This document shows positions 10,136 to 16,756 of a stretch of 23,355 bases of DNA, piece after piece. Numbering within the stretch: position 1 is the first letter of the stretch; every line of letters starts with the position of its first letter. Position numbers and translations under genes: made by a program. The notes under the pieces were generated by a model. The model saw only the letters and a list, made by a program, of their open reading frames with translations. It was not told the origin of the DNA and searched no databases. Source of the DNA: a virus; the IMG/VR virus record IMGVR_UViG_3300021440_000124, positions 1 to 23,355 of that record; one strand, 5' to 3'.

Positions 10136-11374
10136 ATGGCACAGCTCGATCTGACCGCATTCGACCCGATGCTCAAGGACCACTACGCCCCCGGCGAAGT
10201 GGCCAAGATGGCGTTCCAGAACAACAAGGCTCTGGGCCTCATCAAGAAGTCCCGCAAGAAGATGGTGGGAGGCCGCAAGTGGGTGCAGCCCGTTGGCTAC
10301 GCACTCCCCGGCGGCGGCTCGTCCACCTTTGCCACGGCGCTTGCCGCGGCGAACAACACCAGCAAATACGAGGCGTGGGAAGTCACCCGCGCGTCGCACT
10401 ACCGTCTCGCGAAGGTGCAGAACGAAGTGATCGAGGCCACCGCCACCGGTGACGTCGACGCCTTCGAACCGGCATTCGACGAGTTCGACCGCGCCATCGA
10501 CGCGGAGTCGAACTGGATCAACTTCCGGTTCTTCCGCTCGAAGTCGGGCGCATTCGGTCGCCTGAACAACAGCGGCGTGGCCACCGCGGTCGCGACGCTC
10601 GACGACAAGGCCTCGGTGTGGGCGTGCCGTGAAGGCGACGTCATCAAGCTCGACAGCGCCGCGGCGGGCACCTCTCTCCGCGCCGGCACAGTCACGGTTG
10701 CGTCGGTCCAGCGCATGGACGGCACCATCACCATGACGGGCAACCTGTCGGCCGGCATCGCGGCAGCCGCGGTTACGGATTACATGTTCCTGGACGGGGA
10801 TGCTACGCTCTCCCCGGCTGGCCTCGCGGACTGGGTGCCGGACACGGCCCCGACGTCCACGGCGTTCTACGGCGTCGACCGCACGCTCGAGCCAGAGTAT
10901 CTCGGCGGCATCCGCATCGACGCGACGGATGGTCGCTCGGTGGCAAACGCCCTCGTGGATGCGGTCGCGGCCTGCGACAACATCGGCGGGACGCCTGACG
11001 TCTGCTTCATGAACCCGCTGACCTTCGGGACGCTGGCGAAGCAGATGGAAGGCAAGTGGACCATCACCTCGGCTGCCGGCTACGACGGCAATAAGGTCGC
11101 CACGGTCGGCTTCAAGGGCTTCACGGTCAACCTCAACGGCCAGGAGCTCACCATCTACACCGACCGGTGTTGCCCGGTGAAGCGCATCTACGTCCTGACC
11201 TGGTCGAGTTGGACGATGTTCTCGGCGGGCCCGGCGCCCAACTTCCTGCAGCGCCGCGCTGGCTCGATCATCAAGGTCAGCGAAGCGAGCGACGGCTACG
11301 AGGCCCGCGTGGGTGAGTACCTGAACTTCTGCTGCGCGACCCCCGGCTGGAACGCCGTGATTCTCCTGCCGTAA
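10136..11374 (+). CDS. Major capsid protein (HK97-fold expected)
   Basis: A 412-residue protein with its own ribosome binding site, directly after the scaffold. It begins MAQLDLTAFDPMLKDHYAP and continues with KMAFQNNKALGLIKK and GGRKWVQPVGYA, a start typical of podovirus-type capsid proteins where an N-terminal arm leads to a conserved strand. Later segments FDRAIDAESNWINFRFF, GTPDVCFMNPLTFGTLAKQ and the C-terminal FLQRRAGSIIKVSEASDGYEAR region fit the peptidase-like core and last strands of the fold. It forms the icosahedral shell. No separate head protease was found, so maturation probably depends on scaffold exit alone. Call rests on order, size and sequence character. Confidence 0.88.
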   Translation: MAQLDLTAFDPMLKDHYAPGEVAKMAFQNNKALGLIKKSRKKMVGGRKWVQPVGYALPGGGSSTFATALAAANNTSKYEAWEVTRASHYRLAKVQNEVIEATATGDVDAFEPAFDEFDRAIDAESNWINFRFFRSKSGAFGRLNNSGVATAVATLDDKASVWACREGDVIKLDSAAAGTSLRAGTVTVASVQRMDGTITMTGNLSAGIAAAAVTDYMFLDGDATLSPAGLADWVPDTAPTSTAFYGVDRTLEPEYLGGIRIDATDGRSVANALVDAVAACDNIGGTPDVCFMNPLTFGTLAKQMEGKWTITSAAGYDGNKVATVGFKGFTVNLNGQELTIYTDRCCPVKRIYVLTWSSWTMFSAGPAPNFLQRRAGSIIKVSEASDGYEARVGEYLNFCCATPGWNAVILLP

Positions 11375-11397: not shown

Positions 11398-11808
11398 ATG
11401 AACCGCTCTCCCAATCCACTAGTCGCGCTACCCGTCGAGGGCTGCGTGATGTTCGGCTCGGTGCAAGGCGCTGGCGCGGCGATCCCCGTGATCCCCACGA
11501 CTACGCTGAGTGTCAGCTCGAGCATCCAGCCGATGACGGCAGCCGACAACATGGTGTCAGGCACTGCCGGCGACATCACGCGCTCGGGCGTGGGCGTCTA
11601 CACGCTCAAGCTCAAGGAGGCACTACCGGTCATCCTCGACATCTACCCCGATGTCTGGGGCACGGACGGCAAGCGCGCGCAGGTCACGGACTACGTGCCC
11701 AACACGCGCATCCTCTCGGTGAAGGTCTACACCGCCGCGGGTGTCGCGGCCGACCTCGCGAGCACCGACAACCTCAAGCTGGTCATCTTCGGCCGGCTGT
11801 CGGTCTAG
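11398..11808 (+). CDS. Small virion protein, possible head decoration
   Basis: A 136-residue protein with an AAAGGAA site before ATG 11398. After a short leader it is mostly beta-rich: TTTLSVSSSI, SGVGVYTLKLKEALPVILDIYP, TRILSVKVYTAAG and LKLVIFGRLSV. The repeated SGVGVYTLKL and closing strand with FGRLSV resemble small structural proteins encoded directly after major capsid genes. Position suggests a capsid-decoration or head-completion role. No enzyme motif is visible. Confidence 0.6.
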   Translation: MNRSPNPLVALPVEGCVMFGSVQGAGAAIPVIPTTTLSVSSSIQPMTAADNMVSGTAGDITRSGVGVYTLKLKEALPVILDIYPDVWGTDGKRAQVTDYVPNTRILSVKVYTAAGVAADLASTDNLKLVIFGRLSV

Positions 11809-11827: not shown

Positions 11828-13828
11828 ATGCGCATCGGCGTTGCTGGGGCCATCTGGCTCCTGTTCGCTACCCTTTTCACGGCGCCTGCTCACGCACAGC
11901 GCCTATCACCGCAGGGCGGGACCATCGTCGGCGCAACCACCGGGGGTGGCCTGGCGGTCAGCGGGTCAAAGCTAGGCCTACTTACGTCCTGCGCCACCAA
12001 CGAAGTGTTGAAGTGGAATGGCTCAGCATGGGCCTGCGGGACTGGTGGAGGCGGCGGCGGAACAGTGTCCGGGACCACTGGCAACCTGTCCGTGTTCACG
12101 TCCTCGACCGCCGTCGGAGACTTCGCCGGCAACTCGCCGACGGCTTGCACGGCAGGCAACGCGCTTACCCGCGTCACGATTGCGTCGACCGGCGCTCTTA
12201 CGTTCACGTGCTCGGCGTTCGGCTCGTCGAGTCTGACGAACAGCGCGGGCGCCAACGTCGTCACGAAGAGCGACGGAACGAACCTCGTAGCTTCGAGCAT
12301 CAGCGACAACGGTACGTACGTTCTGACGTCCGAGCCGACCGGCATCGGCAACGTGACGACGCCATCCGGGCAACTCGATGTGCGCATCAACGCGGACGCG
12401 ACGACTGCGCAGCCGATCCAGTCGTGGGGTAACAACTTCACGGGTCAGAACTTCGCCGTGAGTCTCAATCTCGACTCTGCGAAGAACGTCATCATGAAAA
12501 CGTCGAGTGCAAACACGGCGTGGAAGTTCAACAACTCATCCGCGTCCACGATCGTGACGATTGACACGAAGGCCGGAAACACGGCCATCGTGAACGCCGG
12601 AAACACTCAACTCGGCAGCACCAATACCAACACGACCACGATCAACGGTGGATCGACGCTATACGACGCGACTGGATCCACGATCTCAGCGATAGGCGGG
12701 ACGGGGGCAACGGTATACGACGACACCGCATTTGCGGCGGGCGTCGGCGGCGCTGTCATCCTCGGAGGAAAATATACGAGCGGAGGAGCGTATCGCGATG
12801 GCGCCTTCATCAAGGCAAAGAAGACGAACGCGACCGATGCAAACGACGCATTTGATCTCGCACTTGGCACGCGGGCAAACGGTGGATCGCTCACGGAGCG
12901 GATGACGATCGGCAACTCCGGGAACATTGATCTAAACGTCGGTGGAACAGGCACGACGACGATCCAGGGAAACCTAACTGTAAACAGTGGCGCGACGGTC
13001 ACGATCGGAAGCGCCACCACGTTCAACTCAACAGCGCCGACGACAACCTACGAATTTCGAGGGACTGTCATCTCCCCCGCGCAGATCACGGCGAACCAGA
13101 ACGACTATGCGGCCTGTTTGTCGAAAACGTGCCTAATCAACTCGGACGCAGCACGCAACATCACAGGGTTTACCGGCGGAAACGACGGAGAGGAGCGGAC
13201 GATCTGCAACACCGGATCGTTTCAGATCGTAATCAAGAACGAAGACGCCGGATCTACCGCAGCGAATCGGGTGACTACGCTAACCCCGGTCAGCGGAGAC
13301 ATTCGACTCCCGGCAAGCCAGAACGCTTGCGCGTCACTGGTCTACTCGTCGGCAACGTCGCGATGGAGGCAGATCGGCGGGACGTATCTCCCAGCGCTGA
13401 CGATTGCTGCCGGTCTTACCGTCGAGTCCAGCGGTACGACGACTAACTCGCTCGTCGTCAGTGGCCTGACTACGACACAAGGCACGATGACGTTTGGCAA
13501 CGACGACGCGGATACTGCGACGTTCGCGGGCAAGATTTCCGCGACCGGGACCGATCCTGCACTGTCCTCGTGCGGAACATCGCCGACGATCCTCGGCTCG
13601 GACCACGCCGGCACGGTAACGGTAGGCACCGGCACAGCGACGAGTTGCACGCTTACATTTGCCTCAGCGTATTCAACGAACGCGCCCGCGTGCATCCTTA
13701 CGAGCGAGGCGAATAACGCTGATCCGCTCTACTTCTCCGCGAAGTCCACGAGCGCCTTCACCATCACCACTGCCGCCAGCACTAACCTGGCCGGCCAAAA
13801 GTTCAACTACATATGCACGGGAATCTGA
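11828..13828 (+). CDS. Fibre-like protein with an N-terminal signal peptide
   Basis: A 666-residue protein. The first 23 residues form a textbook Sec signal (MRIGVAG, then a hydrophobic core AIWLLFATLFT, then APAHA before Q24). The rest is low in charge, Thr/Ser/Gly/Asn-rich and beta-repeat-like (GNTAIVNAGNTQLGSTNT, NLTVNSGATVTIGSATT), typical of fibre or beta-helical adhesins. A poly-Gly linker occurs near residue 75. The C-terminal part (about 575-666) contains SSCGTSP and SCTLTFASAY, a small Cys-containing domain I recall at the ends of environmental phage fibre proteins. It probably binds host or substrate. A Sec signal is unusual for a phage fibre. Codons are richer in GGA and the DNA is less GC-rich than neighbours, hinting at separate ancestry. 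Confidence 0.72.
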   Translation: MRIGVAGAIWLLFATLFTAPAHAQRLSPQGGTIVGATTGGGLAVSGSKLGLLTSCATNEVLKWNGSAWACGTGGGGGGTVSGTTGNLSVFTSSTAVGDFAGNSPTACTAGNALTRVTIASTGALTFTCSAFGSSSLTNSAGANVVTKSDGTNLVASSISDNGTYVLTSEPTGIGNVTTPSGQLDVRINADATTAQPIQSWGNNFTGQNFAVSLNLDSAKNVIMKTSSANTAWKFNNSSASTIVTIDTKAGNTAIVNAGNTQLGSTNTNTTTINGGSTLYDATGSTISAIGGTGATVYDDTAFAAGVGGAVILGGKYTSGGAYRDGAFIKAKKTNATDANDAFDLALGTRANGGSLTERMTIGNSGNIDLNVGGTGTTTIQGNLTVNSGATVTIGSATTFNSTAPTTTYEFRGTVISPAQITANQNDYAACLSKTCLINSDAARNITGFTGGNDGEERTICNTGSFQIVIKNEDAGSTAANRVTTLTPVSGDIRLPASQNACASLVYSSATSRWRQIGGTYLPALTIAAGLTVESSGTTTNSLVVSGLTTTQGTMTFGNDDADTATFAGKISATGTDPALSSCGTSPTILGSDHAGTVTVGTGTATSCTLTFASAYSTNAPACILTSEANNADPLYFSAKSTSAFTITTAASTNLAGQKFNYICTGI

Positions 13829-13830
13829 CC

Positions 13831-14220
13831 ATGCCGATCAATGCAAAGTTTGCCAGTCTCGCAATCGCTGCGGCGTCGGTTTTTGCCGTGGTTGGAGTCG
13901 TTGAGTTCAGCGAGTCTGATTACGTCGACAGCACCAACTCCATGATGGGTGATGCTGGCCTCTCCCGCACAACTGGAAGCGAACGAACGACTGACCTCCT
14001 GACGGGTGAGGTCGAGCCCGGCGGTACTGTCACCACGGGAGTCACGCTGCCGCTCGGCGCCAGGGCGTCCGACGTCATCGGCCCAGGAACGTTCGACGTG
14101 GTTTCGTTTACGCACACCGACCGGAAGGACGGCACGTGGCTCGAGGTCGTTTCCCGCAACACGACGGATGCACCCCTGCGCTTCGTCGGTTTCGTCACGT
14201 ACACGATGGGAGTTGAGTAG
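13831..14220 (+). CDS. Protein with N-terminal membrane or signal segment
   Basis: A 129-residue protein starting at ATG 13831, two nucleotides after the stop of the fibre-like gene; ATG 13813 is an in-frame alternative overlapping that gene. Residues 5-25 (AKFASLAIAAASVFAVVGVVEF) are hydrophobic after a short basic start, giving a signal anchor or uncleaved signal; no clear AxA cleavage site follows. The remainder is beta-rich (GTFDVVSFTHTDRKDGTWLEVVSRNTTDAPLRFVGFV region), with a WLEV...APLRFVG pattern like an Ig-type or C-terminal barrel domain. It is the middle gene of three with export signals. No family was recognised. Confidence 0.6.
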   Translation: MPINAKFASLAIAAASVFAVVGVVEFSESDYVDSTNSMMGDAGLSRTTGSERTTDLLTGEVEPGGTVTTGVTLPLGARASDVIGPGTFDVVSFTHTDRKDGTWLEVVSRNTTDAPLRFVGFVTYTMGVE

Positions 14221-14490
14221 ATGCGCGGAGTCCTGTTCCTGAGCGTCATGCTTGCCTGTAATACGCCTCACAACCTTGTATGTGAGCGTGTTGCCATTCT
14301 CAGCCCGAAGGCCGAGTGCATCCCGGAGATGTCGGGCGTCGGATCGTCCAACGTTCACACGGCCCGCATCACGGTCGAGCAAAACGGCTCGAAGTCCACC
14401 GTTGTCTGCGGCGTGTCACAGGGGCAGCTCGCGATGGCGTGTGATGCGTTGCAAGTGCAGCCAAAGCCCGCCGAGGCGCCGAAGCAGTAG
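14221..14490 (+). CDS. Small lipoprotein-like secreted protein
   Basis: An 89-residue protein starting directly after the previous TAG. The start MRGVLFLSVMLAC has a short hydrophobic run ending at C13 with Ala before it, close to a lipobox although Met at -3 is not ideal. Four more cysteines follow at 21, 33, 63 and 74, which could form disulfides outside the cytoplasm, and the C-terminus is Pro/Lys-rich (QPKPAEAPKQ). It might be a lipoprotein at the envelope. A spanin role is conceivable from size and lipobox, but no partner lysis gene is nearby. Function unknown. Confidence 0.55.
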   Translation: MRGVLFLSVMLACNTPHNLVCERVAILSPKAECIPEMSGVGSSNVHTARITVEQNGSKSTVVCGVSQGQLAMACDALQVQPKPAEAPKQ

Positions 14491-14492
14491 CC

Positions 14493-15488
14493 ATGATCTT
14501 CCTCGATGAAACCGTCGACGCCCAACGGGAGGTTCCATTCCACCTCCCGGACAGCACTGACCCGCTCACCGGCGTCATCGGGCACACCTTCGCGACTGGC
14601 GAAGTGCTCATCCGCATCCCTGGCGCTGGCTACGTCAACGCCGACGTGTCGCGCGTGGTCGAGAAGGGATACGGCGACTACGCGCTGCAGCTCACCGACG
14701 CCCAGGTGGCGACGGCGGGCAAGGTCTACATCCGCGTGTCCGTCACCGGCGCGCAGCCGTGGACGAGCTTCGAGGACATCATCAGCCGTTCCGACTTCGT
14801 GTCGGGCGGCGTCGTCACGCCAGCCACGCAGCGGACCTTCACGCTGGCCGACTTGCGGGACATGGCCCTGCGCCGCGCGGGCGTCGAAGAGTCCGGCGAC
14901 CTGACTGCCGCTGTCCTCAACGACTTCATCAACGGAGCGCTGGCCGAGCTCTGGGACATCTTGAAGGCCAAGGCTGACGAGCGGCTGCTTACCTCGACCA
15001 CGCTGTCTGTGACCTCGGGCAACGCGAACGCGTCGCTCCCGGCGGGCTTCTACACGCTGCGCAAGCTCGAGATCGTCGACACCGGCGTATCCAGCGGCTA
15101 CCGGCAGCTCCGGTCCATCTCACTGGACGCCACGCACCGCTACGGCACCGTGGTAAGCAAGCGGTACCGGTACTGGCTGAACGCCTACAACATCACGCTG
15201 GTCCCGACGCCCAACGCAGCGGAAACCCTGCGCCTCTGGTACGTGCCCGTTGCCCCGTACCTCGTCGACGACACGGACAGCATCGACGGCTGGAACGGCT
15301 ACGAGGAGCTCGTCACGGCGCTCGTGTTCAAGCGCATCCTGGCCCGCCAGGACCTGAGCACGTCGGACGTCGAGCGCGAGTGTGCCCGGCTGGCCGACCG
15401 CATCGCAGCGGCCTCGGATGGCCGCGACGCCGAGCCCTTCTACCTCAACGACCCGCAGCCTGACTTCTACGACGACGAGGTGGACTGA
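14493..15488 (+). CDS. Head-tail adaptor fused to an N-terminal virion domain
   Basis: A 331-residue protein of two parts. The C-terminal part (about 115-331) resembles podovirus head-tail adaptors: helices LRDMALRRAGVEE and LNDFINGALAELWDILKAK, strands with PAGFYTLRKLEIVD, then LRLWYVPVAPYLVDDTDSI and a final helical GYEELVTALVFKRIL, the pattern of the adaptor ring under the portal. The N-terminal part (about 1-98) looks like a separate beta domain often found alone in phage virion proteins (GEVLIRIPGAGY, YGDYALQLTDAQ, GKVYIRVSVTG). The fusion would place an extra domain on the outside of the neck. Assignment comes from pattern and from position before the tail genes. Confidence 0.68.
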   Translation: MIFLDETVDAQREVPFHLPDSTDPLTGVIGHTFATGEVLIRIPGAGYVNADVSRVVEKGYGDYALQLTDAQVATAGKVYIRVSVTGAQPWTSFEDIISRSDFVSGGVVTPATQRTFTLADLRDMALRRAGVEESGDLTAAVLNDFINGALAELWDILKAKADERLLTSTTLSVTSGNANASLPAGFYTLRKLEIVDTGVSSGYRQLRSISLDATHRYGTVVSKRYRYWLNAYNITLVPTPNAAETLRLWYVPVAPYLVDDTDSIDGWNGYEELVTALVFKRILARQDLSTSDVERECARLADRIAAASDGRDAEPFYLNDPQPDFYDDEVD

Positions 15489-16756
15489 TGCCCGCGAAGC
15501 GCAAGTCACCGCCACGGAAGCGCTCGACGTTGCTCGGCAGCAGCGTCGAGGACGTGGCGACCTCGCGCGCGTTGGATGACATCACGGCAGCCGTCAACCG
15601 CCTCGAAGACATCGCCGTCTTCACCACGGGCAAGGACGGCTACGTGCCCGCGCCGGGCACGGATGCCGCCGACACTGACGTGCTGCGTGCTGACGGCACC
15701 TGGGGCGCAGGTGGCGGCGGCACTGGGCCCGCTGGACCTGCCGGGCCGACTGGCGCGACCGGCGCAACGGGGCCCGCTGGCGCTACGGGAGCAACCGGCG
15801 CAACTGGAGCCGATGGCCCTGCCGGCCCTGCGCTGTTCATGCTGGCCGCCGACGGCGAACCCGGCGAGCTCGGCCCGCCTGGACCCCCCGGCCCGCAAGG
15901 CAGCCCAGGCAGCGCGGGCAGCACCGGAGCGCAGGGCGCACCTGGTCCTGCGGTGTATCTCGAGGCGGAACCCGGAGCCGATGGCGACATGGGACCACCG
16001 GGGCCTGTCGGTCCTGCGGGTACCGCGGGCAGCACTGGCGCTCAGGGCCCAGCTGGGCCTGCCATCTACCTCGAAGCAGAGCAGGGCGCAGACGGCGACA
16101 TGGGACCTCCCGGTCCCGCTGGTGTCGCTGGCGCTGCAGGTGCGCAGGGCATCCAGGGCGTCCCTGGTCCCGCTCTCTTCTTCCTCGCAGATGCAGGCGA
16201 CGATGGCGAGCGCGGACCTCCTGGTGCTGCAGGTTCCAACGGTGCCGCGGGTGCAGCCGGAAGCGCTGGACCGATGGGGCCTCCCGGCGACGACGGCCCA
16301 GCCTGCGATTGCATGCTGATTCCTGGACCTGCGGGCCCCGTCGGCGCGACCGGTCCATCTGGCAGCGGCGGCGCGTCGGCCACGGTCGTCGAGGTCAACG
16401 TCAGCGGAACGCCTGTCACGCGCGGCACGTTCACGATCACCAACGGCACCATCACCGCAACTAGCAAGGTCCTCGTGTGGCAGTCCTATGGCCCCTATAC
16501 GGGCAAGGGCACCGTTACCAAGGACGAGGGCGAGATGGATCCCATCGTGGCGCTCGCTGTCCCCGCGGCTGGCTCGGCCCTGGTTCGATGGCACACGGAA
16601 CACGTTGTTGTCGAGTCGCCCGTCTTGACCACTGCGCCAAGTCTCGGCGGCGGCACTGCAGCCAACAGCGGAACCAACCGCGACCCGCGCGCGACGGCGC
16701 TTCGTCTCGGGCGCGTCAAAGGAAATGTGAAGTTCGCGTACGTCGTCTTCACCTAG
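15488..16756 (+). CDS. Collagen-like tail fibre protein
   Basis: A 422-residue protein starting at ATG 15488 (TGATG overlap). After a basic start and a helix that may trimerise ([17 protein letters not shown]), a motif VLRADGTWG leads into long Gly-X-Y repeats (about 79-295), expected to form a collagen-type triple helix. The repeats are broken at regular places by GPA followed by a hydrophobic and acidic stretch: LFMLAADGE (116), [10 protein letters not shown] (156), [10 protein letters not shown] (193) and [10 protein letters not shown] (230), plus CDCMLI (273). The C-terminal 125 residues form a beta-rich globular domain ([13 protein letters not shown] to FAYVVFT). It is probably a trimeric fibre or head/tail appendage. 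Collagen repeats without prolyl hydroxylation are known in bacteria and phages. Confidence 0.82.
15836..16310 (+). repeat. Repeating module in the collagen-like gene
   Basis: The Gly-X-Y interruptions recur at protein spacings of 40, 37, 37 and 43 residues. Modules 2 and 3 are nearly identical in protein ([16 protein letters not shown]), and the fifth interruption is Cys-containing (ACDCML). This indicates module duplication with divergence and not simple triplet slippage. Coordinates mark the first to the last interruption approximately. Confidence 0.6.

Follow-up and report, generated by a model that had tools for sequence, protein, structure and literature searches.

Gene content and organization of the locus

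The window (the whole stretch of DNA analysed, 23,355 nt) is a 23-kb metagenomic viral fragment that is podovirus-like by gene content. The genes are ordered terminase, SU10/P22-type portal, a scaffold-like gene, major capsid protein (MCP), a small gene, a three-gene block, SU10-type adaptor, collagen-like fibre and a large tail protein. The MCP gene (10136–11374, + strand; phrog_14242) and the small conserved head-region gene g11398 (11398–11808, +) lie to the left of the block, and the adaptor gene (14493–15488, +; PF24175, E 1.7e-16) forms its right flank. The first gene of the block (11828–13828, +) encodes a fibre-like protein of 666 aa, identified from its ORF and from relatives of one of its domains. 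The second (13831–14220, +) encodes a 129 aa protein with an N-terminal hydrophobic segment, and the third (14221–14490, +) an 89 aa protein with a lipoprotein-like start at Cys13 and four further cysteines; both of these were called from ORF and hydrophobicity score, and no relatives of either were found.

All three genes are oriented as the virion genes are. The intergenic gaps are 19 nt ahead of the fibre gene and then 2, 0 and 2 nt up to the adaptor, and the initial annotation of three ORFs at 11828–14490 with almost no spacing is exact in its coordinates, with 2 and 0 nt within the block. No promoter-like site was found inside the block; thus, it is likely to be transcribed together with the virion genes. 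One terminator-like site is present in the block, which is below the count in shuffled sequences, and an Rfam search gave no match.

N-terminal signals of the block proteins

Signals were scored with a rough custom script, not SignalP, that combines a 10-residue Kyte–Doolittle core, a net positive start and small residues at −3/−1. Just three of the 22 window ORFs scored have a core of at least 2.2, and these are the block proteins: the fibre (2.35), the anchor protein (2.63) and the lipoprotein-like protein (2.80, the strongest of the 22). At a looser core cut of 1.8, g11398 is added with a score of 1.90. When the three block proteins were shuffled over their whole length (20,000 shuffles), 1.9 %, 2.1 % and 4.9 % passed the loose test. 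Among 93 distinct N-termini of the relatives' conserved virion proteins, which served as the control, none passed at 2.2 and one passed at 1.8. The export signals first proposed for three adjacent genes of the virion region are therefore upheld. A greedy list of 247 ORFs from the window and 16 relatives, in which the anchor and lipoprotein-like ORFs are displaced by a longer antisense ORF, yielded further passes outside the window (in L011, L019, L020 and L023); these were set aside as not fibre-like, and three of the four lie on the minus strand.

The signal peptide predicted for the fibre (residues 1–23; 11828–11896, +) was assigned from its sequence and hydrophobicity score, with predicted cleavage after residue 23. 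Its N-terminus (MRIGV...PAHA-Q) has a positive start, a hydrophobic core and small residues at −3/−1. An AGGAG lies just 5′ of the start codon at 11828, and the next in-frame start codon is only at residue 60; any near full-length fibre must therefore carry the signal, which is not a start-codon artefact. Judged by these features, the N-terminus is convincing as a Sec signal, and the description of it as a textbook case (AHA-Q) stands, as does that of a hydrophobic anchor on the second protein. The 129 aa protein lacks a good cleavage site, and its hydrophobic segment is read as a signal-anchor. The lipoprotein-like cysteine of the third protein is less certain: the motif VMLA-C was judged against the strict lipobox pattern, which it does not match, and Cys13 comes early, so that the 89 aa product is only a possible lipoprotein. 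Elsewhere in the window, a 110 aa Cys-rich lipoprotein-like ORF (359–691, −; MRVIILLVAVAAC-S...) likewise has its cysteine at residue 13, which hints that the phage or its host may commonly use lipoprotein signals of such short length.

Neither the anchor protein nor the lipoprotein-like protein, each searched alone, has a relative in IMG/VR. The 89 aa protein has no Pfam match, and its only PHROG match is phrog_37257 (unknown function) at E 0.018. The two genes could be a two-component spanin (lysis) pair that by chance lies behind the fibre gene, since adjacent genes for an inner-membrane-anchored protein and a lipoprotein are the spanin arrangement described in PMC3556154. However, neither protein matches a spanin family in Pfam or PHROGs, the lipobox is not canonical, and the genes lie between the capsid and adaptor genes with no lysis gene identified beside them; a spanin pair is thus very improbable here.

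The fibre and its domain

At the curated cut-off the fibre as a whole matches no Pfam family; it also matches no PHROG and no PDB sequence. Residues 414–521 match tail fibres in five phage records, and the surrounding domain (approximately residues 400–524; 13025–13399, +) is common to annotated phage tail fibres. A profile of this domain matched 50 viral loci and 15 genome loci; the structure alignment comprised the window and 52 of these 65 loci, the remainder being mostly near-copies. The domain is modelled as all beta with a pLDDT of 88.5. A comparison of the model with BFVD gave 146 viral matches at E≤0.001, some of which are phage fibres or minor tail proteins. In the PDB no match reaches E≤0.001, and the fold match to tailspike 4 of CBA120 is weak, with E 0.004 and a TM of about 0.42. 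By its recurring domain the window fibre is of a real phage-fibre type, as had been supposed for the first product of the block. In L004 only short stretches are held in common with the window fibre.

No docking module was recognized in the window fibre: residues 23–201 have no phage match at E≤1, and the GLE...DDHIR..K module of the PaP3-type fibres described below is absent on inspection.

Insertion and codon usage

The MCP search of IMG/VR returned 22 relatives (L006 being L005 again). The interval from MCP to adaptor was inspected in 13 of these loci, the others being near-copies or contigs that end before the interval. It spans 418–1728 bp in the 13 relatives versus 3.1 kb in the window, and none of the 13 has a fibre, anchor or lipoprotein gene there. 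In L005 the counterpart of g11398 runs straight into the adaptor gene. Synonymous codon usage of the block deviates from that of the phage backbone (fibre, z −11.2; anchor, −4.7; lipoprotein-like, −3.0), while the two parts of the adaptor (z +0.8 and +1.9) fit the phage. Absence from all inspected relatives together with foreign codon usage bears out the proposed cassette nature of the three genes, and the block was probably acquired as a unit. Foreign codon usage is not specific to the block, since g3492 (z −3.0), the scaffold gene (−2.9) and the collagen-like gene also deviate; the last of these (15488–16756, +) does so strongly (z −6.9).

The first 113 residues of the adaptor (14493–14831, +), directly 3′ of the block, are an N-terminal extension without counterpart in the L005 adaptor and have native codon usage; a link between this extension and the new fibre is speculation. 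Two relatives carry another single gene of 156 aa just 5′ of the adaptor (L017, 7266–7736; L019, 11492–11962), at the same site as the window block. With the window, these make the site a possible insertion hot spot.

Signals on other fibres with the same domain

Sec-type starts, counted at the first or second start codon only, are present in 6 of the 50 viral loci with the domain (L035, L038, L040, L048, L049 and L075) and in 4 of the 15 genome loci (L078, L081, L083 and L087), L081 being the same fibre as L035. Score passes at internal starts were left uncounted (L052, L060, L080, L084, L085, L086, L089, L091 and L123). In one bacterial family, the domain was matched in 45 of 296 genomes. 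Thirty-two loci of the bacterial set, further genomes included, were read, and a signal was present at the start in two; loci in this set may be cut at their ends, and a third, L120, seems signal-less only because it is cut off before the start, the same gene being signal-bearing in L083. Most bacterial copies of the domain have no signal. Relatives without hydrophobic N-termini had been named in advance as evidence against export, and on this point the outcome is ambiguous: 44 of the 50 viral loci have no signal, yet several unrelated lineages have one. A role for disulfides was considered and rejected, as signal-bearing fibres show no cysteine enrichment (0–3 Cys vs 0–5).

A number of these fibres also lie next to other genes with signals. 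In L040 (IMG/VR 3300005937_000009), whose MCP and portal belong to the same PHROGs as those of the window, three consecutive signal-bearing genes lie between the MCP and the tail genes. Unlike the small genes of the window, however, all three are larger, and only the second has the domain in common with the window fibre. Clusters are also present in L078, L083, L100 and L101. In the latter two, a second signal-bearing gene (L100, 6170–6688, 172 aa; L101, 6182–6700) separates the gene of the signal-bearing fibre from that of the nozzle.

A tail fibre of Bradyrhizobium phage ppBdUSDA122-1 (OP596612) resembles the window fibre in its Sec-type N-terminus and in its internal domain, with 44 % identity across about 100 residues. 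It differs in belonging to a siphophage, in having another N-terminal module and in a C-terminal part that recurs in numerous tail fibres and collar proteins of phages. Virions of this phage have been seen by microscopy, and particles are released by its lysogen (PMC10127595).

The signal at the module border of PaP3-type fibres

A second family is informative as to what a signal on a phage fibre may mean. Among 25 viral loci with the PaP3-type module, eight carry a signal of 19–28 aa that ends in (A/S)-x-A directly before GLE; the remaining 17 have no signal, their first residue lying at GLE or LE or shortly before it. In L075, fibre residues 25–86, behind the signal, match residues 2–63 of PDB 9nxk, ‘Tail fibers protein’, a chain near-identical to gp12 of the Bruynoghevirus PaP3 and probably from phage Pa223. 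The gene context is likewise that of a tail fibre: the fibre gene of Pseudomonas phage PaP3 lies directly 5′ of the homologue of the L075 nozzle-type gene, L075 has adaptor, signal-bearing fibre and nozzle-type gene in a row, and all eight signal-bearing fibres are flanked by homologues of the adaptor and of the nozzle. Among the signal-less members, L102 is their closest relative. The eight loci probably represent one origin, not eight. Between L094 and L095 the signals are only 46 % identical versus 98 % for the module, with charge, core and small residues kept. Because the end of the signal coincides with the start of the N-terminal module of ordinary members, the simplest reading is that the signal would be cleaved to leave an ordinary fibre N-terminus.

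The initial annotation took an export signal to argue against a virion protein. That premise is weakened, since eight of the 25 loci have their predicted cleavage site where a tail-fibre module known from the PDB begins; such a signal does not of itself place a phage fibre outside the virion. The argument extends to the window fibre by analogy only, since no docking module is recognized there; PaP3 gp12, for its part, has the module and no signal.

The hydrophobic N-terminus might instead not serve export at all; the fibre would then fold in the cytoplasm and keep the segment as a peptide that anchors it in the virion or nucleates the trimer. Tailed phages as a rule assemble in the cytoplasm, which speaks for such a peptide. 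However, in all eight PaP3-type cases the small residues at −3/−1 fall right at the border of the module, the start is charged, the segment diverges fast while these features are kept, and homologues attach without this segment. A retained peptide therefore appears improbable.

Virion protein or envelope product

Alternatively, the exported fibre may be a non-virion envelope product, held or helped by the anchor and lipoprotein-like proteins, that covers or competes for receptors, either in superinfection exclusion or in protecting progeny from binding to debris. The succession of three products targeted to the membrane or for export is in keeping with this, as is a fibre without a recognized docking module. 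Lom of phage lambda provides a precedent, as an exported phage product encoded among the tail genes (PMC12309495), although Lom is an outer-membrane beta-barrel and not a fibre. Against an envelope role, the PaP3-type family keeps a known tail-fibre module behind its signal, and searches of Pfam and PHROGs relate none of the block proteins, the 89 aa protein included, to known exclusion proteins. The roles first suggested for the block (decoy, exclusion factor, adhesin or alteration of the host surface) find no homologue or domain that points to them, and an envelope product is considered unlikely.

In the open full-text literature on signal peptides and fibres or on secreted phage proteins, a scope that takes in few subscription papers, no report of signals on tail fibres was found in the text available. 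Published work describes phage DGR proteins without signal peptides (PMC6199706) and a signal-bearing esterase of phage PBR31 (PMC10975493), and reports no signal peptide for gp38 (PMC12946066).

Proposed mechanism

The explanation favoured here, for which confidence is evenly divided, is a Sec-exported fibre precursor acquired as a block with two small membrane-targeted companions. It builds on what is present in the sequence data: the features of the three proteins, the insertion, the foreign codon usage, the recurrence of signal-bearing fibres, and the coincidence of signal end and module start in a second family. A podovirus would have gained a tail-fibre-type gene encoding a Sec precursor, which entered the late virion operon in a single block with the genes of the two companions. 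The fibre would be exported via the Sec translocon and cut by signal peptidase at AHA-Q, and the mature protein would fold in the periplasm, where its 12 cysteines could pair. At lysis, the mature fibre would meet the released particles and dock on the adaptor or tail; if it is not part of the virion, it would act at the envelope instead. Docking after lysis is preferred over action at the envelope by analogy with the PaP3-type case. The anchor and lipoprotein-like proteins may have some role in this process. Counting against the favoured explanation, a secreted fibre has no obvious route to the particle before lysis if assembly is cytoplasmic.

Implications for tailed phages

A signal on a phage gene is no proof of a non-virion role, and the fibres described here are a warning to that effect. 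Tailed phages are taught to be assembled wholly in the cytoplasm; a signal that, at several loci, ends precisely where a known tail-fibre module begins suggests an exception, and one that is directly testable in a phage already in culture. More generally, and more tentatively, some tailed phages may make a virion tail fibre as a Sec-secreted precursor that matures in the periplasm and joins capsid–tail particles no earlier than lysis, aided by membrane proteins encoded alongside; this remains somewhat doubtful. If true, particle assembly in these phages would be split between two compartments.
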